A stretch of 64,000 nucleotides of DNA, taken from the NCBI GenBank assembly GCA_033064195.1, contig JARBJD010000086.1, positions 62,001 to 126,000 on the forward strand, given 5' to 3'. This stretch comes from Blattamonas nauphoetae. Its lineage: Eukaryota > Preaxostyla > Oxymonadida. Below the pieces are notes generated by a model. The model searched no databases. It was given only the letters and a program-made list of their open reading frames with translations, and was not told where the DNA came from. The position numbers were made by a program, and so were the translations under genes. Below are positions 13,951-63,415 of the stretch, piece after piece. How positions within the stretch are numbered: the first letter of the stretch is position 1; each line of letters starts with the position of its first letter.

Positions 13951-15554
13951 TCACGGACTGGTGCACCATCACCTCGTCCATCTTCCGATCCAGCCACGCA
14001 ACTGGCCGCGGTGGAGGCTGCTTCTTTGCTCACTGTGGCGTGAATATCACAAATTGTGTGTTTGAGCGATGTGTGACGAGTCAGAATGGAGGAGCCATCA
14101 GAATGAACGAGCTCTGGAGCCTCTGCTGCAAAAACACAGCCTTCCGCGGATGTTGGTACACGGGAGCGTTCCCAGGGTCTCGGGACGTGGCAATCGATGT
14201 CTGGACAAATCAAAAGATTGGCAAAGCCAACTTCCCAGGGTGTGATTCAACATCGGGCTCACCGAATGTGTTCTCGGATTGGTATTACCAAACCCTCTCT
14301 GGTTGGATCCCCCAAATCTACAAAACAACACGGATGACACGCGTGGAGTTCGAACCGCAGGTTGTGGACGATGCTGAGTGCATGGGACTCACGATTGATA
14401 CCGCACATGCTCTGCAATGTGTGATGTTTGTGTTTCTCCTCCATTGTGACGGCTCTCGCCTTGTTCGTGTTCCTTTTGGTGACAACGGAGTCCCTTCCAC
14501 GCGAGGCAGCCTCGTCTTCCCAACACGACTCCCCACCATCGCCAACAACGAGACATTTCAGATCTATTCCGTGTCGATGCTCGGATGGAAGTGTCCGACG
14601 AACATCGTCCACGCAACAACACTCGTCGCAGAAGACAAAGTGGAAGTCACTCTGTTTGGGCACGATCTGAACTTCAACACCTTTCTCGTCATTCTCAAAG
14701 ACTCGAACAACACCAAAACCAAACACACAGTGAAAAGCACAGTTGGAACGAATCTCAAATTCACAGAATCGATCTCGTTCGACAAGTCGTCTGTGTTTCG
14801 GTTTGGCGAAACGTACACACTCGTCTCGATCGAAGTCGGGTCATACTTCTTCCCAAACGAGAACGCCGTCTCCTTTCGTGTCGAATCGCCAGCAGTGTTG
14901 TCGACTGTTTCACAGAGCAACCAGACAGACAGCATTGTTCTCCGATTTGGCGGGAAAGGGTTCATTTATGAATCGTACACTCTGACAATCCACACAACAG
15001 ACTCCCTCGAGCCTTATCACGAAACGACAGTCACACTCACTCCGAAATCGCACATGGAGTTGGAAGATTGGACAGCAACGCTCTACCCGCTCTCAGGCGC
15101 AGATCTGCTGTACGGAAGAACATACGAAGTGCTCGAAGGGACGCCGAACAACGACAGACAAACAGTCAATGTCGACTGGGGGTCGTTCGTGACCCCTCCC
15201 GAACCAACTCGGATTGAGGAATGCCTGGAACAAGACTTTAACAAAGATCAGATTATATTGTCACTCGAGTTGCAGGGACGAGAACTGATGTCATATTCGG
15301 GAAGATTGAGTCTGTCAGACGGACTGAAGGAGTGGAAATCGATGAGATCCATCGAAGCGATCAATTCGACACGCTGCTCAGTGTCGTTCGCAGTCGCTGA
15401 GAAAGAAACATCGACTCACGCCGGATTGGGAAGGACGTACGCACTGAAGTCGACAGAGGATGACCAACATGCAATTGTGGTGAACGACGGGATCTTGATT
15501 GAAGTCCCAACCAAAACCGCTCCACTGCCACGTGCTGTGCTCTCGTCAATCTCC
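13951..15554 (+). pseudogene. Surface beta-helix-type protein gene, middle part
   Basis: This continues the gene begun at 11023. It starts with beta-helix-like repeats (GRGGGCFFAHCGVNITNCVFERC) and passes into a region of tandem Ig-like or E-set-like modules with recurring phrases (VEVTLFGHDLNFNTFLVILKD; IVLRFGGKGFIYESYTLTI; IILSLELQGRELMSYSGRL), each about 100-110 residues apart. It stops being host sequence at 15554, where a MULE end begins. The membrane anchor expected at the C-terminus is missing here. A fitting C-terminal part lies at 62514-63415 on the other strand (see Part 2). Confidence 0.75.
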
Positions 15555-15783
15555 AGGGAACGACTATATCTCATCAAGCATTCCGTCTATATCTCATCAA
15601 GTTTTGATCAGACCTTTACCATGTCCCTTAATAGTATTGTTCTCAGGTGAGGAAGAAATGATTTTCCTTCTCCAACACATCATTCTTATCTTCATCTCAC
15701 TGTACTTCTCGCTATTTTCAGCAATTTCGTTGAAATAAACAACCTTCTGTTGTTTCAAACAAACTACGTTGATCGAGCCATTG
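15555..15783 (+). mobile_element. MULE terminal repeat, copy A
   Basis: Starts GGGAACGACTATATCTC and contains two copies of CTATATCTCATCAAG. It aligns with 63416-63645, very closely over the first ~75 bp and more loosely after. The 9 bp just outside, CAATCTCCA (15546-15554), is also found just outside the other copy. 9-bp duplications are usual for Mutator-like elements. No transposase follows here; decayed host sequence does. Confidence 0.75.
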
Positions 15784-15839
15784 ATTGTTTCGTTCCTTCA
15801 TCAAGATCAGGTAACAGCTGGACTCATCGAAGTGATATC

Positions 15840-17580
15840 TGTGTTGTAGGAACCGTTGTCGAGAAAAAGTTGAGTACCATTGGTGAAATCGATATCAACA
15901 CTCTTCAGCCTTCTCTTCATGTATCTCTTCCTCTCCATCTCCTTCATAATCTCCAGAATCTTCAAACTTTTCATCTGGACACTCTGTTTCGATTTCGAAT
16001 GGGATTCAATCCACGTGTGTGCTGTCTTTCTTCTCGCACGTCGTTTTTTGAATTTTTCTCACAAATCAATCGGCTGCTCGTAGTCAGTGAAAGACAAGCT
16101 CTCCCGCACCTGCGTGTTTGTGATGTCATGATTTTTTGGAAGTTCGGCTTCGTTTTATCATTGACCAGTGTGTTCGGCACAGTTCCCATCGTCCACCTCA
16201 CTCATCCTGATATCCGCTCTTTTTGAAGCATCCTTCAAGAAAAACTATCTAAATGCCCAAAAAGTGATTCAACAAGCAACAATCGGATATCCGCACTTTT
16301 TCAATCAATGGACGATCTTTTCGATTGAAAAGGAGCTGGATGACATGGTTGAGGCAGAACGGATGAAAATGAATGATGATCCCATGCAAGGACTTGGGAT
16401 GAACGATGGTGACAAAGGAGGAGGAACAGCTGGTGCGCAAGCGAAGTTGGAGACGTCGAAGATGATTTTACTTACAGTTCCGAACTTGTTGGACCAACCA
16501 TCGTATTCTGTTGACCAACTGCACCGTCTTGCGCTGTTGGCAGCTCGAAAAGCGAAGGAAACGTTCGAATACATCAAAAAACAGCTTCTGATTTCACCAA
16601 ACTCAGTGGCGCTTTGGAAGATGATGACATCGATTTCACCAATGGTGACACGGCTAAAGACGGACTGGACTCGATAATCACGATCCTGGAAAAGAAAGCG
16701 ACAGCAAAGAAAGCACACGAACATCAATCACTTTTCGTTGGAGAAGAGAACGAAAGACTGTTTCAGTTCGAAGTGTCGGCGAAGACAGTTCACTCAACGA
16801 CAAAACAATTTCAAATATTGAAGCATACGTCACAGATGTCGGCACTGGTGCTTACACACGACTTGTTTGAGCATCTGGCAGCCCCGACGATGGTGGGAGG
16901 GTGGGAATACATTTAAGACTTGGATGCGATCCTGTAGAACACGAAGACAGCTCTGTTTCGCAGTCTGGACCCGCTCAGTCTGTGGTCACCGAGTTCCACG
17001 GGCTGCTGGACACAATCGGAGAATTAACATTCGCAATCCCCGCATCGTCGTCGCTGCTGGCGAACCCGACTGTCTTCAACGACGCCGACGAACACGATTC
17101 GCTGTTGTGGGAGATTGTACTTCTGATTACGTCGGGGCACGAGAGGAATGTGGAAGTGACGTTTCTGACGATGATTGTGGTGCTGGTTGTGTTGGAGGTG
17201 TTGGTTGTGGTTGTGTACGGGTTCATTTGGAAGAAGCTGTCTCGAATGAAGAAGGGGCGATGCTCATTCTCGGCCTGATCCTGATAGAGAATGAGACGGA
17301 AGGGGAAGATGGACGAAGATGAGGAAGAGGGAATAACGAACGCTCAATCGAACGAGCTGGACATGAACGACAACCTCGCCGTTCGCTTCATGAACCCTCA
17401 AATTCCGCATTCGATGACTCCTCGCAAATCGTTGACAATGACACCTATCGCCGGACCCCACCCTTCATCCTCGAAAATCACTGACATCATCGTCTCTCAA
17501 CGAACCCACTCTTACTCCTCACAAATCTCTCGCCATGTCTCCTCTGAAAGCACCCACAGGGCAGAATAACCCGACTAACG
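15840..17580 (+). pseudogene. Remnant of a large TmcB-like membrane protein gene
   Basis: Pieces in several frames look like one decayed gene. The piece at about 16220-16677 (QATIGYPHFFNQWTIFSIEK, then DMVEAERMK ... LAARKAKETFEYIKKQLLISPNS) resembles the TPR-like segment of TmcB and related guanylate-cyclase-type proteins of protists. A second frame continues from 16614 (DTAKDGLDSIITILEKKATAKKAHEHQSLF). A third at about 16900-17278 holds a hydrophobic helix (LTMIVVLVVLEVLVVVVYGF). Frame changes lie near 16610 and 16900, with an in-frame stop after the helix. The family call comes from memory of sequence style and is moderate at best. Confidence 0.4.
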
Positions 17581-18000
17581 TTGTTGAGTCAGCCCCACAC
17601 TCGCTGGACGAGACACCAAATGTCGATCCCTAAAAGCATGCCTCCGCCGCAGCCATACACGCCCCTCCTCGGATAGGCAGCGGGGAAGCAGACAACGTCG
17701 CTGTTCCAGACGAGCCCGCCGAACGACTCGGAATCACCAGACATGGTCACACAGACGAACTCGGAGCCGCTGATCAAGGTGAGCGACACGCCATCGGAGA
17801 CAAAGCCACGAAGGATAGTGCTGGAGCTGGTGGAAGAGCGAGTGGAGGAGTCGATTTAGGATGTGGAGATGTCGCACGAGCTTACCCTGACCATGGCGAA
17901 CGACGCACACAGAACAGCTGATCACTCTGCCAGCAGCGGAACTGACGCCGAACATGCACGCAACATGAACGACATGCTGTGCTGAGCCCGAAACGAGTAC
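17581..18000. other. No gene recognised
   Basis: Frames here are short. The plus strand has a Gly/Asp/Ala-rich stretch that could be further decayed sequence of the gene to the left. Nothing else can be supported. Confidence 0.5.
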
Positions 18001-19366
18001 TCAGATGACGATCACCCGCATTCTGAAGACGCTGTTCTCGTGTTGCGACGCGGGTAACATTTCATTCAGAGCGACGCAAATGATGAGTTTCCAGACTGTT
18101 GTCGATACTTGCACTGACAAGGAGAGTTGGTGATAGTGTTCAAACAGCTGCAACAGGACTGGGAAAACACTCACGAGCGATGTTGAATCGCTTTCGAAGA
18201 ATGATATTGCTCGAAAGATGGGAATCACCAAGTTGTACATCTGGATAGTATCCGCGAACAAAAGGTTGTCTCGCTGAGCCAGAGAGAGCTGACAGAATGG
18301 CTCCTTGTTGCGAAGAATTCATAGTAGTTGAGGTGCCAGAGATGCCCACCGTGTTTCTACAAATGTTGGAACACGATGGTTGAAGTGTGTGCGGAGTTGG
18401 GCGTGTGACACTTTACAGATTGATTTCACCTTTTCGAACGTCACGTTAGCAATAGAATGCATAGCAACCGTTTTTTTCGAGAGCGTTGTTGAGACGATGA
18501 GCCATTCAAGTGCAGGAGTCGTTCGAACACCAGAAACCAGTCCCATAAAGCATTCTGTCACACATGATGAAACCGTGATTCCTTGTTCGAACATTTCCAG
18601 CTGAATTGCTCCAATCGAAGCGGCATAGATATCCGCGCTTTTCCCCTCGGCCAGAATTGTCCACAGGTGAGGCCGATTCATTTCTAGTGGATTTGTGGCG
18701 CAGTAAATGTTGTATCCAATGTGTCCAAGGGTTCCTCGTGTAGAGAATCGCTCTCTCCAATCATTTTTTTACGATAGTTTTGCTATAGGGACATCAAAGA
18801 GATCTTTCGCTGGCTTTCGTGAATGACTGTCTGAACAAAGGTCTTCATGGCAGGACTTGAAGCTTGGTTGAATGATAGTTTTGTTGAGGCAACCATCCGT
18901 AAAAATGCTTTCTCAATCTCTGTCTTCGATGAACTCACGGACTGAACTTCACGCTGTCTTGAAAGAGTAATAGACTTCATAGGATGATTTTGCATCATCG
19001 ATTGTATTCCACCACGGGCAGGAAAACTACAGCTGTGCTTGTGAAACTTCGGCAACGAGTTTTCGAAGAGACAACCGCAGATTGTGGATCCATCAGAATT
19101 GAGACAGATTCACTTTCGATGACTGGATCGATCTCCTCCTGATCTGCTACAACCGGTGTATCTTGCATATGGCCTTTTGGAAAGGGGAGTTTCTTCCTTT
19201 CCCCGCACAACTTCAGTGGCATTCGTTCCGGGATGTTTTGGAAGTGGTACGATAGAAATTTCTGGAAAAAGAGCAATGAGGAATCAATATCTGTCATACC
19301 TGAGCACCCAAAAATGGTGATACCAGTATTTTCCTCAGCCATCATCGGCGGTGGTGTGCGCCGCAT
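18001..19366 (-). pseudogene. hAT transposase remnant
   Basis: Three overlapping minus-strand pieces resemble the hAT transposase at 54846-57420. The 19366-18995 piece, followed by the 19055-18783 piece (EIEKAFLRMVASTKLSFNQ), corresponds to the region before the catalytic core. The 18681-18319 piece (YAASIGAIQLEMFEQGITVSS...; VPTFVETRWASLAPQLL) and the 18261-18001 piece (YNLVIPIFRAISFFESDS, compare YHLVIPLFQTVSYLESDQ) cover the core. The C-terminal dimerisation region is missing. Several frame changes separate the pieces, so it is dead and older than the 55-kb copy. Confidence 0.65.
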
Positions 19367-20665
19367 CTGAGCGTCAAAATCACTTTCCTTTGGTTAAATA
19401 GGGAAAAAAGAGATGAACAATAACTATTAAAACCTCATCGGTTAGCATGCCGAGTCTCAATTGAAATGATGATCCGAGAGTCCAGTCAGTCGGTGACTAT
19501 TTACGTGATTGAATGGGCGGATCAGTGACTTAAAGTGACTCTTCAGAAAATTATGGTTTCAAAAACACTTTTGTGGAGAAATAGGAGTCTTTCATCAAAA
19601 AATCAGTTTATCTCAAACAAGATGTGATAATTGTGGAAGATACACCAAGATAATACATTGAACGAGACTGAAGATTATCAACGAGTTTTTGAGTGGGATA
19701 AACCAGGAAATTGGGGTGATGATTAATTAATAGCTGTGTCAGAAACACGAACATGTCCATTAGGCCGGACGAAACAAATTTTTGATACATTTAGTATTCT
19801 TTCATCGATTTCCGAATGTATTTTTCTTGTTTCTGTTCTTTTATTTCAATTGAGAGGTATTTTGGGAAACAATTCAAAATACAATCTTATCTCTGCATCA
19901 TATTTCTGTTTACTTCAAAGGATATGTTGAAATACACCAATCATTCCGCATACACACCTCAATATCCTCATTTATTTCTTTTCCAAGAGTAAAACAGGGT
20001 CTGTTCTTCCATGATGTTGTTAGCTTCTGACTAGGTTTGACACATCCCAAGAAATACACTACAGCTGTAAAAAGCAGTCTGGACGGCCATTCTCGATCGC
20101 TTTTCAAGATCTGGATGATGACATCGGATTGGCAGCGACTATTGTCACGATCAATAGTTGTGGCTGAACAACCCAACAAATTGCCGGTGGACTTTGATTC
20201 AGAGCAATGATCAGAGTGGTATTTCAAGCGTCACACTATCAGGATCAACTAAAGTCTCTTGGAAGAGAGCTCGATCAACCCGAAAAAAACGAAGTTGTTT
20301 ATCGAAAAGAAGAACGATCGCAAACTCTGCAGGGTGATCCATGGCGCAAATTCTTTCCAAAACAGCTTTTAAACACTTTCCACACATTACCAACAACTTT
20401 AAGGCCTCTGAAAGAAATGGATGATAATTTACACACTTATGCTGATCTAAACTTGATAAATCATTGAATCATTTCACAATGTTTCTTTTCAGGATTGTTT
20501 CTATTTGTTAACATATCAAATCTGACAAATATCGAGAGAAATGCGAAGAAAACTGTGAATGGTTTGATCGGTCTGAACATGTTCGGGTCATTTGGACAGC
20601 TAAAGGATGTGAAGCTTCAGTAAATCAGGGACAGATTTTGTCTGAATACCTCCAATTATCGACTT
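19367..20665. other. No gene recognised
   Basis: A-T rich, with only short frames on both strands (about 19910-20227 minus, 20207-20467 plus). They show no motif I recognise. Confidence 0.5.
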
Positions 20666-21420
20666 TTGGGTCTAAAAGAATCATTTGACTACCTCACGGC
20701 TCTTATCCACGTTTTCACCCTCCCAGACTTGAATAAAGTGATATTCGGTATCGACCAGAATACGCTTCGCCAGCCTTATCGCCTGAAGAGATTGAAAGTT
20801 CATCAAAGAGAAAGAAACCAACACCACAACCAATCCCGTCGTCCCGTTGTGATGGAAACACGTTTCATGAATCAAAAATTCCTTTACAATCATTCTGTTG
20901 AAACAAGCTCAACTCGAACGAAAATGATCAGACCAAATTTATGCGAAGAATCAGTGCAACAGGTTCTCATGGTCCGCGATGAAGTTCTCCCTCGGAACAA
21001 TCACAAGAACAAATATCAATGGCAATGGTCACCCAGATCCCTGATTGATACTCAAACGAACCTCCACCGCTTGTTTTGTTCCCACTATCCGACAAATACG
21101 ATTTCTAAAACAACTTTTCTACGTTTCTGCAAGCATCATAAGAGACCAAAGCGTCGAACAGACTGTTGAAACCGATGCGGGCGTCTAGATGAATTAGTTA
21201 GTCAAGTTGACAAGCTGAAAATCGGTCAAGATCTCCTCGTTTTTGACATCAAAGACAATTGGAGACTCTGCGTAACTCCAGAACAACACTCCATAGATTT
21301 TTATTGGAAATAACAAATCTCTCTCATCTCTTTCTACGGTCGTTTCCGGGACATTACACGCTTCACTTTGGCTGATTTCTGGGAGATCCACGCTTTGATC
21401 TCGGGACTTGTTTTTTGAAG
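20666..21420 (+). pseudogene. Transposase-like remnant, family not assigned
   Basis: A frame of 167 codons ends with TTFLRFCKHHKRPKRRTDC and a TGA. One frame over, it seems to continue as RCGRLDELVSQVDKLKIGQ and DLLVFDIKDNWRLCVTPEQ. A Cys/His cluster followed by an Asp-x-Lys-Asp-Asn motif recalls the region around the first catalytic Asp of some DDE transposases. It is broken by at least two stops or frame changes. I cannot place the family. Confidence 0.3.
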
Positions 21421-24400
21421 AGATTAACGAAGATTGAGTTCGATCCTGCTATATCGTGGAATTGAGGCTTACACAGATGCAAATCGCAGAAGAAATGTTT
21501 TCGTGGTCCCAATAACGAAGACAGCTCAGTGATTCCAAACGTCAGAAAGACAAAGAATGGTTTGCTTCCTCTTCAGAGATTGGACAAGCTTGATTGATCT
21601 CTTCTTCGCAGATGTAACGTTTGCATCAGATCGTTCGATCTCTTCCAGGAAATGTTTCAGTCTAATCATCTCTTCCTCTGTGAAAGATACAGGTTTGTCC
21701 TTCCTCCATAGTTGCACCTTGATCTTAGGACAGACAAATTGTGATGGTACCATCAAATGTTCGATTTCAGCAATTGATCCTGTTCCTTCAGGCTGTTGTG
21801 GTTGGGCAGGGACCTCACCAAACGATATGAGCCCTTCTATGCTGGCACCATACATCTTCTTTCTCACAGAGGTCTCATGCCTTATTAGAGACGGAGACTT
21901 TCCAATAGTATTCCGACGGGGGGTGAGGAGAGCTCACATCATGGTTTCTTCCAGATTCACAAATGGTTGTGACGCTGACGACCCTTCAACACCCTCATCC
22001 AGTGTTTCTTCCTCCACCATTCTGGCTACTTTCTTTCCCATCACATGTCCAAAAAAACTGTTGACGAGTTCTGGAATGATTGTCAGATAGATTCACAATA
22101 GTCCCCGAAAGAATGAAAGATAGCTCCTGAAATGCGAACCTTGCCGATGCTTGAACATGATACTGAATTTCACGATTTCTGATAAATAATTGTTTGAGAA
22201 GATTTGAATGTGAACTGCCTGAATGAGATTACACAAAAAATTGGGCTTCCCACAGCACAGAATTGAAGCAAAAAAACTGAAAACCGGGACTACCCGAGTA
22301 CGAACCCAAGATCGGGATTTTATGGTATCGAGAAAAACCTTTCTCGGTCCTCACAAAATGAAGACACTTCAACGAGGACATGCAGAGGTGGTGAAGGAGA
22401 CATTCCAGGTCTGAAGGTCATGCCATCATTTTTCAAAATTGTTGTCATTTTTTCTCCTCAACCAGCCATCCGTTTCTCCAACAATCTAATCTAACCAGTC
22501 ATTGAAAATGCGGTCTAATTGTGCAAAGACTCAAACGCAGAGACTGAAGGACAATTGGATGAGAATTTTTGACGTCATAGAAAAGTTCGACCACCAGTCT
22601 TCAAACAAATCAGTCTCTCTAAGAAAAGAAATGAACTACTATCTCTCCATAATTCGTTTCAGATGTAGTTCGACAATATTGTCGGCTCGTTGGACAGAAC
22701 CCCGATCGTGTCTGGCTGATGGGACCAGAGCATTCCAAAAAGGTCCACAGTTTTTGGCAGAATTGTTTTCAGTTGTGACTTTTCCGATGGATATTGGAAT
22801 AATGGTATCGAAATCGATCAGAAACAGCTATTTGAGGCTGAATTCCTTTTTTTAAAATTAGTTAACAAGATTTGAAAAAGAAAAGCTGATTTTACTTTTT
22901 TATGGGTCTTTCACAAATCACTCGTTCTGGACAACCATCGGGTCCTTAAGGTGCGCCCCCCTATGACAGCTTCACCTCAATTGTACCACCGTTTTCTCGA
23001 TTTTTGTTAACTATTCTTGAGTATTGCCAGGGTTTTGAGAAGGTCCTCACCTGACTCACCCTCAAGTGACCTCACCTTTTTTCCAATTATTGTTTTTGCT
23101 CCAAATTTCGTGAGGAGAGTTGTTTATCGATATAACAATTATAAAAGAAATGAATAAGCATATTGTGAAGTTTGCACTGGTTCAATTTGTTGTATCTGTG
23201 AACATAGAGTCGTTTTGTTTGGCGAAATGGAGTGTAAGATCAATTCTATCTTCAAAAATCAAAGAGTTATCAACTGAGAATCATTCAATGGGATAATTGA
23301 AGTTTGATCGAACCCACCACCATTCTCTCCTTCAGACATCGATTCTATTTCAGTGATTATTTTGAAAAAATAGAGAAAGAAAACCGTGTCCGGTGAAGTG
23401 GAAGGAAAGGTAAAGTGTGAAATGGTGTCGAAGAGTCGTGTTGTGACCGATCTTCGTGAGATTCCTTGGTTCCAGTCTCCTAATTAGGACACCAGGAGAC
23501 CTCACCTCCTGAAAGAGGGAGGTGAGGTCATTTAACCTCACGGCAACGTTAAAACTGTCAGACAACTATAAACCCGGAGTATTGCCCTCAAAGTGGAACG
23601 CTCTGGATGGGACCCTTGGGTGTCCAATGTGTAGAGACAAATTCATATCGATTGAGTGAGATGATGTCGAAGAAGTATCTTGAAAAAGGTTCAAAAGAAA
23701 ACGGCTGACACACACTGTAGGAGAGCCTGCGAATGATGTGGTGTGACTTCATTTCTTGTCACATCATTCGACTGAAAGTTTAGCAGGTACTTGTTCTCGA
23801 AGAAGATTGTGTTTGGATTTGGAGGATGAATTCCCAAGGTGTGAGAAATTTCGATCAAGCTCATTTTTTCCGAAACTGCTCTGGGTCCAATTGACAATGA
23901 AAAGCCTTCAAGTTCTGGTTCGTTTGAACGGTCTTTGAATTGTCTCCAAAACTGAATGTATCTCTATTCGGAGATGTCAAACGAGATAGTCTCCTCCCGG
24001 TTCATCCAAACATCGAAGTGTTGCTCTTGAGATGAATGAGTGTGACCAAGATGGATGGTTGAATATTATCTGAATCCAGCGCTGTTATTCAACTCCTCGC
24101 TTTTTTGTGGTTTCCTATTGAAGCTCGCCTGAGTTTGGTCAGAATGTTTGAAATCATTCAAATGGTCGACGGTCACAAATAAAACACGAGATTGACTACT
24201 CTTGCCACAGATTGATCATTGATCTCGAAAACACTCTTCAATAAAATCATGCACTTCTTCTAGAGAAATGTCGATTCATTTCTCAACCATGAGAGGAGAT
24301 TGGTTTTGAATTGTGGACTTCGAACTTTTGAATGATTATTTTCAGAAAATGATGATTGCTAGTTTGAGTCTGTTTTCGTTGATCGATGAAATTCTGGTTT

Positions 24401-26469: not shown

Positions 26470-26947
26470 CTCTCTATTCTCTTTCCATTTTCACCTTCTT
26501 CCTATTCTGTTCGAATCGATTTGAAGAAAGAGGGGTTGAACCAAAACGTCTTGGAGTATTTCTGTTGTAAGATAGCCTTCGTTGTAGTAGTGGAAGGTCA
26601 CGCGTGATTTGGTCGATCATTTGTTCACTTTCGAAACTCGACATGTACTTCTTCCGACGACGAAGTCTCAATCTCCTCTTCAAACGGAACTGTTGATAGT
26701 GCTGAAATCGAGACGAGTGACGATGACGAGCTCGACCTGGTCGGAGACGATCGCTTCGATTTGAGATGGGTTAACTCTTGGTCTATTCCATCATCTTTCT
26801 GTGGAATCTTGTCAACTTTTTCGATATTCATCAATTCAACGCTTCGATCTGACCGCCCACTATTTCACCCCTTCGGGCCGGTCAGACCATCTCACATAGA
26901 CTGGGAGACGAGCCCAGTTGTGTTTGGCTTGACCAAAGGGAAAGCCA

Positions 26948-29795: not shown

Positions 29796-30072
29796 CGACT
29801 GACAGTCAGTGGCAGATCCTCCCACAAAAATGCTCAACTTTTGAAGATGATGCCAAATTGCAGGATTTATGCAATAAACCAGTGGGCAATAAGTAACTTT
29901 ACGGGACTGGTGAAATCGAACTCCAGAACAATCTACATCGACTATTTTTGCTAAATATACTTGATTTATGAACATGCTGTTGTGATTAGGTCAATTTAGA
30001 AGAAAAAAGTCAATATTTCAAATTGTGTTTGTGAGAAGAAAAAAAAGGGTTAATCGTCATTTTTTTCTAAAT

Positions 30073-52238: not shown

Positions 52239-52586
52239 CAGTGCTCCGAAAAACCCGATAAGCACTCAAAACCCGTTTTTATTCGATTACATTCTGATTT
52301 TCAACTATAGTGCTAAAAATTTGTTTTCTAATCTCTTAAAAACATGTTTTCAATCGTTTATTGAGAGAGAGAATTACCAGAAATCACTCTAAACAATGAC
52401 GCAGTTGATGAAGAATGGGGAACAGTACTAACTCTCCGCCGCTTCTTGATTGTTAAAACCAGGCTAGATCATGGTGTTTATGTCCATAAAGTCAAATTTC
52501 AAAAGGTAGCTTAAAATGAAATGATAATAGAGTATATTTCGGTTTATTTCGGGTTTTTCGGCAGAAACGGGTTTTTCAGAACACTG
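52239..52586. mobile_element. 348-bp MITE in the GTPase-like gene
   Basis: Inverted ends CAGTGCTCCGAAAAACCCG at the left and CAGTGTTCTGAAAAACCCG read inward from the right. TCA flanks both sides (52236-52238 and 52587-52589), a 3-bp duplication. Without it the host would read LEVSQNPND, and the related copy at 53488 has LEVSRD at the same point. Confidence 0.8.
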
Positions 52587-52974
52587 TCACTTCCAGGGAT
52601 CCAAAAAATCAAATCGTACATCTCATCTATTTCATCATGTTATATTCAACATTCTGTCATTCTTGAGTTGTTTAGAAGCTGTTTTTAAACAAGATAACAA
52701 TTTCAAGAGATACGTGTGTTGAAATAATCACAAGAAAAACAAACATCAAAATGTAAGCTTAATAAAGATAGAGGAAGGATAGATGACTGAAAACATCATC
52801 ATCTGGTACATTAAAGTAGACAACGGTGAGATAGCTCGTTGAATGGACGGTACTCAGTTCTCTAGCCAATCTTGACAATTGATGTTGTTTTTTGAACCCT
52901 TTCCAAAGCAACAGTGATCTTGACAGAGAAGAATGATTTTGTACGAAACTAAGATCTGGATGAGCCAGTTCACT

Positions 52975-53229
52975 TCAGCTGACAATGCAGAATCCATCGT
53001 CGAGCAGCAAGTTCGTGATTGTAACTGCATCGGCAGGTGTCGCGAATATGTTCGGAGATGAAACACTAAACAACCTATATTGTCCAACAGTTTCGGGTGT
53101 TCGAACCAATGAGAGCGATGATAAGAGCGGAGTGCTGGGAGATGGAGAATTGGATGGCCAACTGCATTGGACAGTCTTAAATGAATATTGAGGAAAAATT
53201 GAATCGAAATGTTGATAGAGACATACCAT
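52975..53229 (-). pseudogene. N-terminal module of the PAM2/GTPase-like family, fragment
   Basis: Minus frame of 84 codons with SLVRTPETVGQYRLFSV and ATPADAVTITNLLLDDG. This resembles SIGSRTYRLRSSW ... RMDTLNDIAQTITSFF in the copy at 53488-54159. It may be the displaced 5' part of the gene interrupted at 52239. Confidence 0.35.
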
Positions 53230-53487
53230 TGATGAAAGTGTACTATTGGGAGGAATGGTGAATGGATAGGAAGAAAGATAATGATATGATCAGACCCATA
53301 TCACCAAAACTCCAATTTTCACTTGACAACATGATGATGTTCTGATTGACTCTTTTTCAATGAAAAAGCCTTCCGTCAACGATTTAAGTGTTTTGAATGA
53401 ACAAGAATGAGTTTGTGCACAACTGACAAATTGACAAATCGAGACCAAATTGAAAAACAAATTGAAAATGGGGCCAATTTGGTTTTT

Positions 53488-54263
53488 TCAATCCCTGCTC
53501 ACTTCCAACGGTGATTGCTGGTTGATGATGGAAGGAGAGGATTGTGGTGTGTTGTCTGGAGCAATGTTTGCTGGATGAGGACTTGATTGTGGGGTTGTGG
53601 TTCCTTTATCTCTTGGGACAAAGCTTGGGGCGTTTTTCTTCATTTGAGATGTCTGACCTTGAAGTGGGGGCATAGAAAGAGTGGAAACCACTGGTTGGAG
53701 GGTCTGTACGGACAGTTTCGCCTGAATGGGCTGAGGAGGAGCAGGAAGAGTGACGGGGTGTCTGACTGTGTACTGTTTGAGAATGTGTTCCGCTAAATTT
53801 GAGGAAGGGGACGTTGAGTCTTGTTTTGAACAATGAGAAACGGCCACATTGGCTTGTTGTTCTCCATTCTCCGTTTCAGGGAAGAAGACTTCGAAAGAGG
53901 AGAGCGGCGACGTTTCAGAGAGGTCAAAGAGTACATGAGTAGCAGAAAAATCTGTGATGAAGAAAGAGGTGATGGTTTGAGCAATGTCATTCAGAGTATC
54001 CATCCGATCTGGTGATGGAAGTGATTGGCACAGCGGCCACGAAGATCTCAGTCGGTAAGTGCGACTGCCGATGGAAGTGAATGCAGAATCAATCGTCTCT
54101 TCGCTTTCAGATGAAGAAATGAAGAGGTCGGTGCCAGTTGAGGACCATTTCGGTCCCAATCGTTCAGTGTCTCTCCATGCGGGTCACGGAAGGCCTCAAT
54201 GACAGATATTGGAGTCTGAGGACACAAATAAGTTTCTGTTGAACTTGTTTGTTCCGTAGACAA
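53488..54263 (-). pseudogene. Second copy of the PAM2-like disordered protein
   Basis: A 5' frame (54263-54140: MSTEQTSSTETYLCPQTPIS ... GETLNDWDRNGP) shifts by one base into the frame that runs to 53488. That frame has a compact module (TYRLRSSWPLCQSLPSPDR; IAQTITSFFITDFSATHVLF) followed by a Gln/Pro/Ser-rich region and MKKNAPSFVPRDK, a PAM2-like motif identical to the one at 51.9-52.1 kb over MKKNAPSF. It ends LEVSRD-TGA without the P-loop. No function known; binding of a poly(A)-binding-protein MLLE domain is an inference from the motif. The frame change may be real or a sequencing error. Confidence 0.5.
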
Positions 54264-54567
54264 GGAACTATTGACGGGAGAAAATCTTGTGCCTAACCAA
54301 GCAAAGGGATGGGAGTGTTGTTTGGTTGTATGACCACCTGGGCTTTCGGTTCTGGTGTTGCAAGGAGCGGTTGTCTTGGCATGTTAATTGGATTGGACGT
54401 TGCCAATGTTGGACTGGACAATCGACCTCAATTGGACATTCATTTTTCGACTTGCTTCTCTCATCCTCAATTCACTCATTCAATCATTTTCACAAAGAAA
54501 TGACAATAATTACTTAAGAAATAGAGAAATGGAGATAATTTGATCATATTTAGCCAAGTGTGAATCT
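54264..54567. other. No gene recognised; GGAC-type traces
   Basis: Scattered GGAC/GTCC blocks near 54385-54440 recall the GGAC-rich repeat family but are too diverged to delimit. Confidence 0.4.
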
Positions 54568-54742
54568 CGACTTGATCCACCCACCATTGGACGTCATTGG
54601 ACGTGACTGGACATTTCGCTGAAACTTTTTCTGTAGTCTACACAATTAGTGCATTCCGTTTTCTGTGTTTTCGGAGAGTCGGCAGAATTGATAATCCAAT
54701 TGACGTCCAGGACTGGACGTCCAATCGACTTTATAATGGGGA
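54568..54742 (-). repeat. GGAC-rich repeat, copy 3, diverged
   Basis: Reads as the reverse complement of copy 1. CTTGATCCACCCACCATTGG at its left matches the right end of copy 1, CAATTAGTGCATTCCGTTTT lies in the middle, and GTCCAATCGACTTTATAATG corresponds to the GTGTCGATTGGAC start. Confidence 0.6.
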
Positions 54743-54845
54743 GCAGTTGGTTCACCCTATCGATGTTGGTTTGTCTATTTCATTCATCTCTCATCTGATC
54801 GGCGAATAGAACATCTCCTCTCTGACAGGTAACCCTGCGGAATCA

Positions 54846-57420
54846 TTGGACACGATCCTGGGCCGAGACGATTCAATGACTTTCGAGTCTGCCCAGACTC
54901 CACAACTTACTCAACGTGATCGAATACTGCGTCATATCGTTTTTCAAAAACACAAACGTTTGGCTTTCGTCCCTTCTGTAACATATTATCAACAGCTCTA
55001 CAACCAGTTGACCATCCCACACAGATGGGAGTCAAAATAATCGATTTGGAGTATGCAACACTGAAAAGTCCTGATGGTCACGACCGTGATTTCGTCTACT
55101 ATCACGTCTGTGGAGCAGACGGAAAAGCAAAGAAGAACACAAAAAGTACAGGCAATGTCTCAAATTAAATTCAGCCGGGGTTCTTTGCACATACGCTAAA
55201 CAGATTCCAATTTGTGAAGCTGCCAAACATGTCTGCTCCAATACAGATTCAAATCTAGGCACACTGGACTCCTTTCTGCAAGCCCAGAAGGAACTGCAAG
55301 AGCAACCGAGAAATCGCCGATTTCCTGGGTTGGAGGATGTGGTAGTCGATAGTCGCCTCGACCTCCTCGCTGGCACGAGACAACCTTTTACTTTGGCAGA
55401 TTCTCCTCTGCTTCGACGGCATGAGGAGATCCTCATTTCTGTTGGGCAGAAAACCCAAACGCTGATGTTTCCAAGCTCGTCCACTCTTTTACAAGACAAA
55501 GAGCGTCGACACTTATGAAGGAGAAAGCAGAACTGCTTGAAGACGTGGTTCTACAAAAGAAGATTGATGACGTAGTCGGACTATGCATGGACTCTGGGAC
55601 CGTTGGAGGAATCACCTACAACGCTTTTCAATTTGTGAATCCGCAAACATATCCATCGCCAGTCATTGCTGATCTTAGGGATGAAGATCACGCAAGTGTC
55701 ACACTTGCTCGATCAGTTGCAACAATCATCGATAAGGCAACAGAAAATGGATTAACTATCGCATCAGTCGTAAGCGACTCTGCAGCTTGTATGATCCACT
55801 GTATTGATCTTGACAATATCGAGTCAGATTCACATTATACAAGGTTCGTTTCTCAGCCCCTTTCCTGGCGACCTTTCATTCGCAATGTGCTGCCCATCTT
55901 CTCCACAACGCATACCGCGATGCTGTAGGCCTTTCCCTCTTCTTCGTTCAATCCACACCTTCGTTGAGAATCTCGTCAACGAGTGCCGTGCAGTTCGCTA
56001 CAAATCGAATTTTTCCAGGAAACCACCTCGGTTTTTAGCCCACAGATGGATTTCCATCTCATCTCTTGTTCTCTGGGTCTACCAAGAATCAAAGAAACTC
56101 ACCGAGCTTTTTCCAGACCAGTTCACTGCACAACGACAATTCGAGGTCCTGATCCTCTATCACCTCGTCATCCCCCTCTTTCAAACTGTGAGTTACCTGG
56201 AATCCGATCAAAGATCTTTGTCCGATGTTCTACCAGCTGTATTTCAACTTCTCCTTCACTACGAAGCACTCACAGTGTTACTACAGGAACATCACCAAGT
56301 CTGGATTCCTCCTACCAGAACTTGCGAGGACTGCGTGTTTTGTCGCATCGTGCAAACAGATTCGGCGATGCTGAGGGCGCTAGCATTCTCGTTCACTCCC
56401 TTTGGGCGACATGTCATGACGGGAATCCCATTTGACAGAATGAAGGAGATTGCATCATATCCCGCCTCGTCACCAATTGAATTCATCCCACTTCCGACTC
56501 CTTCCCAACTCTCTCTGGATGAAAAGAGAGATCTCCCTGATCTCACGAACCCTCCCACTCCAATTCAGATTCGAACAGAGGGTCGCCGTCAGGCTGCTAT
56601 CCATCAGGAAACTCACTTACAACAGACTCTTATCGATCTTGGTCCTGACATTGGCGAGTATTTCGAAACCGGCGAGTCAGAAGATGGAGATAGTGGCGTG
56701 GAGGAAGACTATACTCCTGCTCAAAGAGAAATGAGACAAAAATCAACACTATCACAAGCTGGAAACAAAACAATCAAAGAAGCGACGATACAAGTGCTTC
56801 GTTATGAACTTGAGTACACTCAGCGATTTGATGACACTTCCCAGGACATCCCCATTCAGAAAGTTAAGCGTCGATGCAGTTCAGCGGATTATTCACAATC
56901 GGACATCATCGGAAAGCAGAGTCAACTGGAGAGACTATTGGAGGAGACAATTGGAGAAGAGCATGATTCTGATGATTCTGCAGATTCAGACGAGTACCAG
57001 ACTTGTCGAACTGTGATTGGCGAAACTCAGTGGAAACATCTGCTATGTGTCCAACTTGGACTCACCATTCGACAATCCATCCCAGGATTGGATCCCAAAT
57101 CCATTCTGTGTGTCCAGGCTAATTACCTTGCTTGGTTAAACCATCAGCTCACACTTCCTTTCGACTGTCTATTCGAAACGAAACCATATATGTACTGGAA
57201 GAACAATCGAGACTCATCAAATATCATTGTTCAAACACTATCAACTGTTGCTGTTTGTATGCTAAGCACTGCAGCGACAGAAGCATGCTGTGAGCGTCTC
57301 TTTTCTCAAATGAGAACACTAATTGGATCGCATCGGTTTTCAATGGATCCAGAGACTGTTCGTGCAATTCTCCGAGTTGGATCACAGGCATGTTCGAAAC
57401 TGTTATCAATCCCGAACTGA
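54846..57420 (+). pseudogene. hAT transposase with several frame changes
   Basis: Pieces in order: 54846-55040 (FQKHKRLAFVPSVTYYQQLY); a BED-like piece (DRDFVYYHVCGADGKAKK, then QCLKLNSAGVLCTYA after a frame change near 55150); a long middle (QKELQEQPRNRRFPGLED; VVGLCMDSGTVGGITYNAF; IASVVSDSAACMIHCI); a brief third frame near 55850-55940 (CAAHLLHNAYRDAVG); then 55945-57420 with RKPPRFLAHRWISISSLVLW, an acidic insert, and the C-terminal dimerisation motif (STAATEACCERLFSQMRTLI, followed by GSHRFSMDPETVRAIL). That last motif is characteristic of hAT. At least three frame changes make it inactive. Terminal repeats were not found. Confidence 0.8.
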
Positions 57421-57468
57421 ACCCGAATTGTACCACTTCATCTATCGCTTGTTAGATCGTCATTCAAC

Positions 57469-58968
57469 GTGATCGTTTATGCTCTTGAGTCTCTCGCTCC
57501 GAAAGGCAGGTTCGAGTTCCGCTCAACACATTCATTCGAATGGAAGGCACCGAATAGGCAGAACATCAACATGTGTGGCATCAACTCCTCTCCTCTGCAT
57601 GACGCGATCCAGTCCTCTCCCCTGCATGACGCGATCCAGTCTTCTCCTCTGCATAACGCGATCCAGTCTTCTCCCCTGCATGACGCGATCCAGTCCTCTC
57701 CCCTGCATGACGCGATCCAGTCTTCTCCTCTGCATAACGCGATCCAGTCTTCTCCTCTGCATGGCGCGATCCAGTCTTCTCCTCTGCATGACGCGATCCA
57801 GTCTTCTCCTCTGCGTGACGCGATCCAGTCTTCTCCCCTTCATAGCGCGGTTCAGATCACTCCTCTGCATGACGCGATCCAGTCGTCTCCTCTGCATGAC
57901 GCGATCCAGTCTTCTCCTCTGCATGACGCGATCCAGTCTTCTCCTCTGCGTGACGCGATCCAGTCTTCTCCTCTGCATGACGCGATCCAGTCTTCTCCTC
58001 TGCATGACGCGATCCAGTCTTCTCCTCTGCATGACGCGATCCAGTCTTCTCCTCTGCATGACGCGATCCAGTCTTCTCCTCTGCATGACGCGATCCAGTC
58101 TTCTCCTCTGCATGACGCGATCCAGTCGTCTCCTCTGCATGACGCGATCCAGTCTTCTCCTCTGCATGACGCGATCCAGTCCTCTCCCCTGCATGACGCG
58201 ATCCAGTCTTCTCCTCTGCATGACGCGATCCAGTCGTCTCCTCTGCATGACGCGATCCAGTCTTCTCCCCTGCATGACGCGATCCAGTCCTCTCCCCTGC
58301 ATGACGCGATCCAGTCTTCTCCTCTGCATGACGCGATCCAGTCTTCTCCTCTGCATGACGCGATCCAGTCTTCTCCTCTGCATAACGCGATCCAGTCTTC
58401 TCCTCTGCATGACGCGATCCAGTCGTCTCCTCTGCATGACGCGATCCAGTCTTCTCCTCTGCATGACGCGATCCAGTCTTCTCCTCTGCATGACGCGATC
58501 CAGTCTTCTCCTCTGCGTGACGCGATCCAGTCTTCTCCTCTGCGTGACGCGATCCAGTCTTCTCCCCTTCATAGCGCGGTTCAGATCACTCCTCTGCATG
58601 ACGCGATCCAGTCTTCTCCTCTGCATGACGCGATCCAGTCTTCTCCTCTGCGTGACGCGATCCAGTCTTCTCCACTGCGTGACGCGATCCAGTCTTCTCC
58701 TCTGCATGACGCGATCCAGTCTTCTCCTCTGCGTGACGCGATCCAGTCTTCTCCCCTTCATAGCGCGATTCAGATCACTCCTCTGCATGACGCGATCCAG
58801 TCTTCTCCTCTGCGTGACGCGATCCAGTCTTCTCCTCTGCATAACGCGATCCAGTCTTCTCCTCTGCATGGCGCGATCCAGACTTCTCCCCTTCATAGCG
58901 CGGTTCAGTCCTATCTCCTGCGTTTTGCGATTCGCCCCTCTTTTGAGATCCTCATAGCTCCAGTCTGA
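57469..58968 (+). CDS. Open frame over a 27-bp satellite (SSPLHDAIQ repeats)
   Basis: 499 codons: a unique start of 39 residues (MIVYALESLAPKGRF...), then 49 copies of a nine-residue unit (SSPLHDAIQ with variants SSPLRDAIQ, SSPLHNAIQ, SSPLHSAVQ/ITPLHDAIQ), then a short unique tail (SYLLRFAIRPSFEILIAPV). Because 27 is a multiple of three and no frame of the unit holds a stop, a second plus frame (LLLCMTRSS, 492 codons) and a minus frame (RRRLDRVMQ, 454 codons) are open too. Openness is therefore weak evidence for a gene. No homologue recognised. Confidence 0.35.
   Translation: MIVYALESLAPKGRFEFRSTHSFEWKAPNRQNINMCGINSSPLHDAIQSSPLHDAIQSSPLHNAIQSSPLHDAIQSSPLHDAIQSSPLHNAIQSSPLHGAIQSSPLHDAIQSSPLRDAIQSSPLHSAVQITPLHDAIQSSPLHDAIQSSPLHDAIQSSPLRDAIQSSPLHDAIQSSPLHDAIQSSPLHDAIQSSPLHDAIQSSPLHDAIQSSPLHDAIQSSPLHDAIQSSPLHDAIQSSPLHDAIQSSPLHDAIQSSPLHDAIQSSPLHDAIQSSPLHDAIQSSPLHDAIQSSPLHDAIQSSPLHNAIQSSPLHDAIQSSPLHDAIQSSPLHDAIQSSPLHDAIQSSPLRDAIQSSPLRDAIQSSPLHSAVQITPLHDAIQSSPLHDAIQSSPLRDAIQSSPLRDAIQSSPLHDAIQSSPLRDAIQSSPLHSAIQITPLHDAIQSSPLRDAIQSSPLHNAIQSSPLHGAIQTSPLHSAVQSYLLRFAIRPSFEILIAPV
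57586..58908 (+). repeat. Satellite of 49 units of 27 bp
   Basis: 1,323 bp, exactly 49 x 27. Units are mostly identical or differ at one to three positions. Blocks recur as larger units: the string with CTTCATAGCGCGGTTCAGAT appears near 57837, 58566 and 58752, which points to amplification of multi-unit segments. There are no length variants. Confidence 0.95.
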
Positions 58969-60087
58969 CTCGCCATCCTTTTAATTGTTTCCCCAGTTTT
59001 TTGCGTTAGACGCTACTTCTCCATCTTGATTGATATGAATTTTGTCTGATACAGAGTATCACACGCATAACAACGAACATGACCAGAAACTACTTATCAG
59101 AACAATTGAAGTGGTCAATCGAATTAAAATGAAGGGCTGGAGATCATCCAATTCCCATGAAGCTTAAATAGGAGACTGGACATTGGACTGGACATTGACA
59201 CCTCGACTGGACACAGCTTAACAGGCCAACTGGACACAGCTTAACAGGCCAACGGTTGTCTACGTTCATCATCTGGACATTCTGATCGAAAGTTGGTGAT
59301 ACTCCGTTGATTATTTTGCAGGCGTCGGTGGCTGTTATTTTGCCTTGATGCGCTAGGGGGAAAGGTGATACGTTTTGGAGTAGATAAGTGATATTTGGAT
59401 TTTGGCTGAACACGAAGTGAGCGATTCTCAATGAAATGTGGAAAACAATATATGAGCGTGGAAAAAAATCAAATTTCACCTAATTATCGTTCAATTGTTC
59501 AATAGGAAGGGTACAGGTGAATTTTTCGATTTCAAGTATGATCGCACTTGAAATGGCCGTTTTTAAGATCAGCACCTTTTGGCACACTTTTTTTCATAAA
59601 ACCGGTTCAAAAACAGTGAAAGGATGGAAAACGACAAAAAAAGAGGTCTCTATGTGAGACAATGGAAATAAATCATCCATTAAAGAGAAAAATGGAAAAA
59701 ACATGAAATTTCTGTGTTGATCGAGACAACTTTAATGTTTTTTGAAAATGAAAAAAATTACACAAATGAAGAGTTTCGGGATTATAGATGAAGAATCATG
59801 ATTGTGAGGACAATAGTCTTCGTGGATACAACGAACCCACGCATCCCTTTTTTCATTGAGAATCGCTCAAGTCTTGAGATAAATCGCAACGCAGATGAGT
59901 CCATTTATGAAATTGAAAAAAATGGAGGTGTTGGTCGATCACAAAAATGAATCTAAACGAGAACATACAACTCGAAGGAGTAAAATGAGATGATCCAACC
60001 AAAACAGTTGTTAAACAAAAATGCACCCGACTCAAGCGCAATCGACCATTTCAAACACCCTTACCACTGGTCACACTTCTGAAGGAC
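58969..60087. other. No gene recognised; traces of GGAC-type repeat
   Basis: Near 59165-59250 lie GACTGGACATTGGACTGGAC and two copies of ACTGGACACAGCTTAACAGG in tandem, a diverged relative of the GGAC-rich repeat. The rest is A-rich with short frames. Confidence 0.45.
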
Positions 60088-62252
60088 TTGTGTGAATCAT
60101 CATTGGAGAACGTGAATTCTCCTACGGAACTTTGTTGCGTGAAACATTCTCGTTCATTTTCCCATCCTTTCAATGACTTTATCTTTGTTGTCATTTTGCT
60201 CATTATTTGTGGTGGTATGTCACAGATGGAAGAATTCAGGAGATGCGAGAGTGAGTTCAAGAATGGCGATGAAACGGTCCAATTCAAGATCGCTCATTCT
60301 GTGTTCAACATTCTCACATCAGGTCTGTCACATGATTTCCTCATGATTGTGGGATTATTTGCAAACACATTCTTTTGATTTGGATGGTTGATTTATTCGT
60401 TCTTGTGATATCTCAGAACCATCTCAAATGAACGAACGGAGTTCGATTGGGATTCGGAGTGGATTGTTGGAGAGATTTTCGGAGCGACTTTCCTCGGACT
60501 GTGGATGTCCGCTTTCTGTGTGTCTCTCTTCTTCTCTCCATATGATGATATTTCTGATTCTCTTTGTGATTCTCTTTTTGATTCTCATTTGGATCGATTT
60601 TGTGAATTCATTTTGTGTGTTCAGGGAGTTCTGTCGAGTGTGATTGTCGTGATGGTGACATCGGTGTCGGAAGGACGACCTCGACTTCGGAGTGACTTGA
60701 TTCCTTCTCTGCTTGCGCTCTCCTCCGTTTGTTCCTCTCTTTCTTCATTTCTTCTTTTTCTCCTTCTTTCTCCTGTTCTCGTTGTTCTGGTTATTTCTTT
60801 GATCAGCATGCAGACAGTTCGTTGTCGATACCAGCCACTCACTCACTTGGGTCTGATCTCTTCTCTCTTCTTCATCATTCTTTCCTCTCTCTTTCTCTTT
60901 TCTCTCAAACTGTTCTACTTTCTTTTGATTTGACTTGTGTTTGGAGTCTTCTGTGTGGAGGAAGTCTTTCGTGTGTGGAAGTGGAGGGAGTGTTGAGTTC
61001 GGGAATTGTTGAGAGACTTTGCACTCGAATTGAAAGTGGAAGTGAAGATGAAAGTGAAAGTGGGTCAGTGGATGTTCTACCGACACTTGTTGTTTTGGAC
61101 CGATTGTGCAGTGGCCTTCGCTCTCACATTGACAGCGAACAACATTCGAAATCAAATGACAAGAAGAATGAAGAATGGAGAGAAGATTCGTTCTCGCTGA
61201 CTCGCCGGTGTGGATTCGCACTTGCTCGAATTGAGAAGGCAGTACTGACACTTGGTCACTCGCTCGGTGGAAGAGGTGCAGACGAGAGGACACACCAGCT
61301 TCAGGAAAAGGTTGGAGGAATCGCATTTCGACATTTCTCATCGTCGATCCCGTCTCCATCCCAGAAAGAGATTGGAGCGTTTGGGATTGACTTGGCAGCT
61401 GTTCGAAGGGAGATGGAGGAAAAAATGAAGCAGATGGAAGAAGAGAGAGAGAAGGATAAGAAAGAACGAGAGAAGGAGAAAAGGGAGATGGAGATGCGAG
61501 AGAAGGAAAGAGAGATGGCAGTGAAGAAGGCGGAAGAGGAGAGACAGAGAGAGTTCTCGAGGAAGATGAGAGAGATGGAAGAGATGAAGAGGATGAACGA
61601 AAAATGGATTGAAGAAGGACGACAGAGGGAGGAAGAGAAGAAGCGAGAAGAGGAAAGGAAGAGAAAGGAGGAAGAAGAGCGACGAAGGAATGTGAAGGAA
61701 GGAGCAGCAGCAATCGAAGTGTTCCAACAAGACAAGTTCACTCTCGCTGGAAATGTGTTCACAAAAACGTGTGGCCGCTCCTATCATTCTCTTCTCTCGC
61801 ATTCATTCGGAGTTGGTGTCGTGCGAATCACTTTCATCATTCGAGCCATCAACGGTTCTTTTTGTTTCGGGTTGATCTCGACCGATCTGACAGAACAAAC
61901 AACGACTGGACAGAAATGGTTCATGAGCTTGATAGGAGGAGCTGGATGGAATTGTCATTCGAATTGTCGTTATTCGGAACAGAACGGCAAAGAATCACAC
62001 GACGGATCTGCATGCAAGGCAGGAGCAGTTGGACAGCGAGTGGTGATGGAGGCAGATGGACGAGAAGGAAAGCGAACATTGAAGCTGTCGCAAGATGGAG
62101 AGACACAGCCAGTCTTCTTCTCCAACATTCCTGTTCCCTTCCGATTCGGCCTTTTTATGTACGAATCAGGTGCATCAGTTGAGATTGTGTCGACAGAAGT
62201 GCTTCAAGAGCCATCGTTGGTTGGAGGGAGTTTGGAAGTTGTGATGGACTAA
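60088..62252 (+). CDS. Coiled-coil protein with C-terminal SPRY-type domain
   Basis: Spliced gene, end certain (TAA at 62250-62252), start uncertain. Likely exons: part of 60088-60140; 60230-60320 (MEEFRRCESEFKNGDETVQF ... FNILTS); 60414-60508; from 60625 (GVLSSVIVVMVTSVSEGRPR); then 60960-62252. Introns are GT-AG; one probably runs from 60509 to 60624 and another covers the pyrimidine-rich stretch before 60960. The middle holds a helical region (TRRCGFALARIEKAVLTLGH) and about 110 residues of nearly pure charged coiled coil (61405-61710). The last ~170 residues (FGVGVVRITFIIRAINGSFC; SNIPVPFRFGLFMYESG) look like the SPRY/B30.2-like domain common in Blattamonas proteins, which normally serves protein binding. 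No kinase domain is present in this copy. Confidence 0.65.
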
Positions 62253-62513
62253 TCCGAGTTCTTCTCTCTTCACACTCGCTTTCACTTCATTCTTCTTCAT
62301 TCTCTTCCACTTTTTTCCAATCACCAGACTATCAGTGAAGCCTTGTCTCTCAACCGAAAACACCAATTCTCTCCCAATATGGTTGTGTATGTGTGTGTTT
62401 TGAATCAAAACAGTTGCTTAGATGTGGATACACTGGGTATGCCATGAAAAATTAAACAGAGAAAAGAATTGTAATGGGATAATAAAAAAGGGTGCATAGA
62501 TGTCGATTGGCTT

Positions 62514-63415
62514 TCATCCTAACACGTCGTCGTTCTGTGAATAGTCATGTTGTGCGTACGGAGTTCCGACATATCCTGGCGTGACCTGACTTGGTGGTGG
62601 ATAATCCGCCTGTCTGTGCGGGCGATAGTGTTGCATCTGTTCATGCAACAACGCTTCAACTTGTGTTGGAGCAGATGGTTTTATTATTTGTGAAAATGCA
62701 GGTGGTGGTTCGATTGGTTCGAGCAACACAGGGATGACTTGCGGTTCGCCTTTCGATGTGTCCTGTCTTTCTTCTTCTGGTTTATCTGCATCAACGAGCT
62801 GGGCTGGAGGAGCAGATGCTTGCACAGTTGGTAATTGTGGATAGTCGCTGAGATATCCAGTCGTGTAGTTCCTAGTTGGGTCTGGAAAGTCGCTTGGATG
62901 AACTTGCTTTGAATCATCTTTCTGGAAGGGGCAAGTGCAGATGCAGCAATTTGAACAGTAGTTCGCTTCATTTGGAGAACAGCACACGCACACCTTTTTC
63001 TCAGATCGACAGTAAATCAGAGCCAAAACGAAAAGAACCAAGCACAGAGACGTCACAACGATGACAGGAACCAGCCAGATCCACATCACCGCCTTCGGAT
63101 CGCGAGGAGCAGACGAGGCGACAGGTGTCCTGAAAGGAGAGACTGAAACATCGATCGACTGATTCTGACCCAGCGAGACTACAGCAGACACAGTGTATCG
63201 TCGACCAGGAAGGAAAGAATCGACCCCCTCTTCACTGATCGGAACAACCCGACTTTCGAGTGCGGTTGCTGAGACAGAAGAGAATGTGAGCGTCCTTCTG
63301 TGCGTCTGGCTTTTGTCGTCAACTGTCGAAAAGGTGATCGAGTACTTTGGACAGACAAGATTCTTGCCAAACAGTTGGACACGCAGAGATCCGTTGCGGT
63401 CATCGGTGGAGATTG
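62514..63415 (-). pseudogene. Surface protein, C-terminal part with membrane anchor
   Basis: About 300 codons ending TAG at 62514. It begins in an Ig-like or E-set-like module of the kind seen at 14040-15554 (GSLRVQLFGKNLVCPKYSIT). It then has a membrane helix (MWIWLVPVIVVTSLCLVLFV), a cytoplasmic Cys-rich knot (VCVCCSPNEANYCSNCCICT) and a Pro/Gln/Tyr-rich tail. There is no start: host sequence ends at 63415, where the MULE end begins. It fits in frame onto the truncated gene at 13951-15554 (...AVLSSIS joined to TDDRNGSLRV) across the shared 9-bp target. Confidence 0.75.

Follow-up and report, generated by a model that had tools for sequence, protein, structure and literature searches.

Blattamonas nauphoetae is an oxymonad, a flagellate of the cockroach gut. 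The window, by which we mean the whole stretch of 64,000 nucleotides under analysis (contig C823, positions 62001-126000), contains parts of one host gene on both strands, which end against two pieces of a MULE, and searches were made in the B. nauphoetae genome of 88,311,006 bases in 837 contigs. The features on which the argument draws are given below, in window coordinates unless a contig is named.

11023..12319, plus strand: N-terminal part of the host gene, 90-96% to the paralogues on C108, C237 and C251
12320..13956, plus strand: TE3, a DDE_1-type DNA transposon inside the host gene (Pfam DDE_1, 1.4e-13), without counterpart in C108, C237 and C251
13957..15555, plus strand: middle part of the host gene, frame open as far as the MULE, 94-95% to C108 and C237
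15547..15555, plus strand: first copy of the target-site duplication CAATCTCCA, directly outside the MULE terminus that starts at 15556
15556..17912, plus strand: left MULE piece with the GGGAAC end, element positions 1-2368, 99.2% to the C334 copy
17913..18041, no strand assigned: 129 bp inserted at junction J1, the same as an inner stretch of MULEs of the C634/C767 type
18042..18077, minus strand: first 36 bp of TE2, a transposon of about 860 bp unrelated to the MULE, cut off by the proposed inversion
18078..18081, minus strand: 4-bp target duplication of TE2, ATTT (AAAT on the plus strand), with its partner at C823:129159-129162
18082..19727, minus strand: one flank of the second breakpoint site, which adjoins C823:129163 onward in C9, C190 and C778, and in C230 by search coordinates
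62514..63415, minus strand: C-terminal part of the host gene, with an extracellular end, one transmembrane segment (by eye) and a Cys- and Pro-rich tail
63407..63415, minus strand: second copy of CAATCTCCA, directly outside the MULE terminus that starts at 63416
63416..64000, on to C823:128410 (2995 bp), plus strand: right MULE piece with the GGGGCC end and a 658-residue MULE transposase frame
C823:128411-129158, beyond the window: remainder of TE2, right of the right MULE piece, followed by ATTT and then flank
17913..63415, continuing with the right MULE piece to C823:128410, no strand assigned: putatively inverted segment including the J1 insert, 48,498 bp in all

The N-terminal part of the host gene has a hydrophobic start, MNTPFLLIILCLLPLSARPF (by eye), and is separated from the middle part by TE3, on both sides of which stands ACT (12317-12319 and 13957-13959). 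The preliminary description had noted that the host frames stop at MULE termini, that the same 9 bp lie outside both termini and that both MULE ends point the same way, and all of this holds: the left frame stays open between 13947 and 15555, ending in ...AVLSSIS, the right frame is open from 63415, where it starts ISTDDRNGSLRV, and the termini at 15556 and 63416 both point rightward. CAATCTCCA occurs three times in the window against 1.62 expected, and 25 of 100 shuffles held at least three copies; by itself the 9-mer is unremarkable, and it is its exact abutment to both MULE termini that is notable. None of the three host gene pieces had a Pfam match at E 0.01. It is worth mentioning a receptor-like frame of 1312 residues elsewhere (L032:5306-9244, minus strand); by eye, its repeats resemble those of the split gene in style, and it has a transmembrane segment and ends C-terminally in a kinase-like part.

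The two MULE termini form an 83-bp direct repeat, the terminal inverted repeats being 93% alike between both ends at the locus over these 83 bp and about 77% alike over 234 bp between opposite ends. Seven copies of the family were examined out of 14 same-contig end pairs; all seven have one GGGAAC and one GGGGCC end, and six carry an exact 9-bp target duplication, the length also found in the window, the copy on C634 being off by one base in a G run. Judged by sequence, the window's two termini are the different ends of one insertion. The transposase frame of the right piece contains domain PF10551 (E=2.3e-21). As reference we used the unbroken C334 copy, about 5,552 bp long with the last 98 bp extrapolated. 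The left piece matches its positions 1-2368 (8 mismatches, 11 gap positions), and the right piece matches it in a long block from 5552 to 2654 (99.6%, 5 mismatches, 5 gap positions) and a short block from 2491 to 2393 (97.0%, 3 mismatches). The pieces are thus complementary, the left stopping at 2368 and the right at 2393 with 24 bp absent, and the C58 copy as reference gave the same internal stop points, 24 bp apart. Both pieces are nearest to C334 and C58, and an 801-bp query over the break region matched over most of its length only in C334, C58 and two copies on C557. Between the two blocks of the right piece, 162 bp of the C334 element (2492-2653) remain unaligned at C823:128312-128317, some 98 bp away from the junction of the inversion; the edges share 6 bp. 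This gap is an internal deletion, which we count against the best explanation.

No second MULE terminus besides those at 15556 and 63416 was found in the window at up to 3 mismatches. At up to 4 mismatches there was none in C823:52001-62000 or in C823:125501-145500, the latter being the neighbouring DNA where the preliminary description had suggested seeking the other MULE end. A preference of the MULE for CAATCTCCA, which the same description had held to speak against a single split gene, was considered and rejected. A survey of MULE ends gave 129 candidates, of which 40 were scored and listed, and 30 of the 40 were examined as loci for their flanking 9-mers, a set which includes the window's left end and leaves its right end outside; CAATCTCCA lay outside 1 of the 30, the window's own left end. 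The flanks comprise 28 distinct 9-mers; each of the two that recur does so within longer flanks that are also identical or almost so, which points to segmental duplicates (C379/C265 and C582/C41).

Three paralogues cover the target site with an identity of at least 85%, and in all three it is uninterrupted and present as a single copy. Both halves are adjacent in C108 (35575-36031 directly after 34935-35583), in C251 (47711-48124 directly after 47389-47719) and, on the minus strand, in C237 (20716-20306 directly after 22312-20710), where the site differs from CAATCTCCA by 2 bases. The halves overlap by 9, 9 and 7 bases, respectively, which is the target site counted once, and the alignment reads straight through. 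The annotated C237 protein BLNAU_20906 (900 residues) covers both halves and crosses the junction in phase (...AVLSSISTDDSNGSLRV...); since it is continuous there, the left and right halves join in phase, although its gene model omits several stretches and has a different C-terminal tail. These three paralogues are unbroken at the target site yet damaged or rearranged elsewhere, C108 and C251 by further insertions and C237 by long frames in pieces, and we do not present them as intact genes. As they lack an insertion at the site, the left and right halves are one gene. The preliminary description had proposed exactly this, one gene split by a MULE with its frames in phase when the 9 bp are counted once, and had suggested a search for a related uninterrupted gene, which these three paralogues provide as far as this site is concerned.

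The C108 contig extends the comparison well beyond the gene. C108:30766-33335 is collinear with window 6385-12300, the window side being broken by two insertions; C108:33352-35583 corresponds to window 13957-15555 plus a 649-bp partial tandem duplication in the C108 paralogue; and C108:35575-40873 corresponds to window 63415 down to 59254, each side having one added insertion (that of the window at 59412-59873). On this one contig, therefore, the left flank and the right flank, the latter reversed, run in the same direction, and C108 is a segmental duplicate in uninverted order, window 6385-15555 followed by 63415 down to 59254. Many other loci resemble part of the stretch downstream of the gene (63415-59254) at about 76-84%, and in C108 this stretch lies beside the gene. 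For the host flanks, no copy above 96% was found in the genome, the window itself excepted.

Several smaller elements were observed along the way. Upstream of the gene lies a 2.85-kb transposon (window 8074-10922), 99% to at least 8 other copies, with an empty site in C108 showing an 8-bp overlap, and a 487-bp repeat (7512-7998) with at least 15 further copies at 96-99% and an empty site in C108 with a 4-bp overlap. The insertion at 59412-59873, of about 460 bp, is 99% to C767:131365-131826 and has no counterpart in C108. The closest paralogue carries an insertion of its own at C108:36031-37642 (loci L048 and L049), in which a frame carries the mariner-like motif DLAPCDFWLF. Elsewhere in the window, a frame at 57479-58957 overlaps about 49 tandem 27-bp units (9-residue repeats), and the arms of a 562-nt inverted repeat (26947-27508 and 35676-36237), 99% complementary, stand 8.2 kb apart.

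The second breakpoint lies in TE2. The left MULE piece is followed on its right by the 129-bp insert, 36 bp of TE2, ATTT (AAAT on the plus strand) and flank, and ATTT stands at both outer sides of the split transposon. Nine TE2 copies were scanned, and the five caught by the pattern are all 859-864 bp long with a matching 4-bp duplication; among the four missed, the C239 copy has AGAT on both sides (by eye). A direct reading of C9, C778 and C190 shows the flanks of the second breakpoint to be adjacent and oriented as expected for an inversion, and search coordinates place them side by side in C230 too; the likeness for the first three is 76-80% on the J1 side and 92-96% on the J2 side. C9 and C778 match each other at 93% over 3.0 kb, so the site lies within a dispersed repeat of about 3 kb, and its intact versions are copies of the repeat and not alleles. 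Three frames at the second breakpoint had no Pfam match at E 0.01.

The junctions join sequences with little or no homology. At J1 the MULE ends after ACACAG, 6 bp common to the insert donor, and the insert meets TE2 at GTTG, 4 bp common to both; at J2 the right MULE piece is joined to TE2 nearly bluntly, with about 2 bp shared. The insert has an identifiable donor, as the 129 bp occur exactly in MULE copies at loci of six other contigs (C767, C634, C568, C379, C265 and C119), and C131 is 99% over 142 bp to the insert region; the whole MULE-derived stretch at J1 spans window 17904-18045. A MULE nested in TE2 is a less favoured source of these 129 bp, since neither junction showed any further part of such an element. 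At the breaks the MULE has lost 24 bp and TE2 about 4 bp or less, the TE2 figure being less certain since the TE2 start at J2 matches at 79% over 33 bp, then with an internal deletion.

Taken together, it is very probable that a MULE and TE2 each inserted, that both were broken internally and that about 48.5 kb was inverted reciprocally through breakage and joining by microhomology or template switching. The complementarity of the MULE halves to within 24 bp places the break inside the element, the reunion of the second-breakpoint flanks in C9, C190 and C778 (C230 by coordinates) shows a reciprocal inversion, and a single one suffices for the four junction partners; the preliminary description had anticipated an inversion of which one breakpoint falls within the element. 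On the evidence of the sequence, a MULE of about 5.55 kb inserted into one surface-protein gene and duplicated CAATCTCCA, and the unrelated TE2, flanked by a 4-bp duplication of its own, lay some 48 kb off. Breaks inside the MULE (between 2368 and 2393) and inside TE2 followed, the intervening segment being rejoined in reverse. Two double-strand breaks, or a replication accident, may have been repaired without long homology, the J2 end being joined almost directly and the repair at J1 copying 129 bp from another MULE copy with template switches at the 6-bp and 4-bp matches.

Four other explanations have to be weighed against this inversion. The preliminary description had left room for a wrong assembly join through the repeated MULE, the real gene still surrounding a simple insertion; the draft is indeed a long-read Canu assembly of Nanopore DNA sheared to about 20 kb (available text of PMC10703272) and the genome is rich in MULE copies, but a misjoin through a repeat should give whole or chimeric copies, whereas here both pieces stop at the same internal point, meet non-homologous TE2 or the 129-bp insert with microhomology, and form reciprocal junctions whose far sides reunite in other loci, which makes this reading very unlikely. 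Ectopic homologous recombination of two MULE copies in opposite orientation would account for the MULE-derived stretch beside J1, and such inversions are documented for Galileo in Drosophila (PMC2775673, in part); it predicts two chimeric copies with exchanged duplications, however, and what we find is one element in two pieces with matching duplications, a partner at the second breakpoint that is TE2, and another MULE-like stretch of 129 bp without either terminus, so that the idea is hardly credible. The same low credence goes to alternative (aberrant) transposition in which two elements contribute their ends, as Ac/fAc do in maize, since both junctions lie inside elements and both MULE termini retain their matching duplication where that mechanism, known to yield inversions (parts of PMC8225341 and PMC4334395), expects junctions at termini and a fresh target duplication. 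Least credible of all are two independent MULE insertions at the same site in two paralogues, each minus the missing gene part, for although the gene has paralogues, the termini are opposite in type, the complementary pieces fall short of each other by just 24 bp, and C334 and C58 are the nearest copies for both.

Returning to the inversion by breaks within both transposons, there is a weak case that short hairpin-forming repeats made the break points fragile. The MULE break falls inside the only perfect 10-bp inverted repeat (spacer 3-40 bases) in 5454 bp scanned, and 200 plain letter shuffles gave a mean of 0.2 such repeats and 3 at most. With a folding span of 44 nt, a size chosen to fit the hairpin, it ranks first of 5411, tied with a neighbouring span; at other sizes the rivals at least as stable range from 8 of 2668 (60 nt) to 465 of 2698 (30 nt), both on the top strand. 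The TE2 hairpin at 20 nt has no rival among 859 spans in the C239 copy or 854 in the C126 copy, and at longer spans up to 35 of 819 (C239) and 33 of 788 (C126); of this hairpin a 4-bp stem is all that the window's own TE2 retains (by eye). These other sizes weaken the view that the hairpin was a major cause of the breaks and, the fold ranks being so strongly dependent on span, we keep it as a lead. An exon-wise search of the draft assembly for polymerase theta through the family-A polymerase domain (PF00476), made without a eukaryotic positive control, gave no match among 9 candidates scored, and the family-B polymerase (PF00136), taken as a yardstick in the same genome, gave 14 matches; end joining by polymerase theta thus finds no support, though such a search does not prove that the enzyme is lacking. 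It is conceivable, though improbable, that both breaks arose at hairpin repeats, each within a DNA transposon unrelated to the other, and that template switching joined the ends in a eukaryote seemingly without the family-A polymerase usually held responsible. If true, transposon hairpins would be fragile sites that reshape the genome independently of transposition and homologous recombination.

The 129-bp insert is identical to its donors and the long MULE blocks diverge from C334 by 0.4-0.8% including indels (3% in the 99-bp block), and the main gene blocks diverge from C108 and C237 by about 4-9%; the MULE insertion and the inversion therefore look younger than the gene duplication. As the halves lie on opposite strands and the left half is further broken by a third transposon (TE3), this gene copy is very probably dead, and annotators should regard the two gene fragments as one broken gene. 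Since other copies in the genome preserve versions of both original sites, the junctions allow the repair mechanism to be read, and for this transposon-associated inversion in an oxymonad the states before and after are documented almost completely. Among the titles listed on the B. nauphoetae genome and on oxymonad transposable elements, none concerned rearrangements in oxymonads, which is not proof of absence in print, and the words MULE and inversion are absent from the text searched of the Monocercomonoides exilis assembly paper (a part of PMC8767320).

The case is a finely resolved example of an already known kind of event. In the Galileo inversions of Drosophila buzzatii, as described in the available sections of PMC2775673, two homologous copies recombined, both became chimeric and the duplications were exchanged; the likeness lies in transposon sequence at both inversion breakpoints and in the use of target-site duplications and empty sites to order the events, and the difference is that here a MULE and an unrelated transposon were each broken internally, with microhomology and a templated insert at the joins. 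Alternative transposition of Ac/fAc in maize likewise engages a cut-and-paste transposon in a gene-rearranging inversion, and its junctions lie at termini with new duplications (PMC8225341, same portion), whereas at this locus there is neither a terminus junction nor a new target duplication. Pack-TIRs arise by gap filling or template switching in TIR transposons (PMC8277862, in the extract available) and share with our case a break inside a TIR transposon and sequence copied from elsewhere with short microhomology; here, in contrast, the copied piece comes from another MULE, and 48.5 kb was reversed instead of the element being filled.
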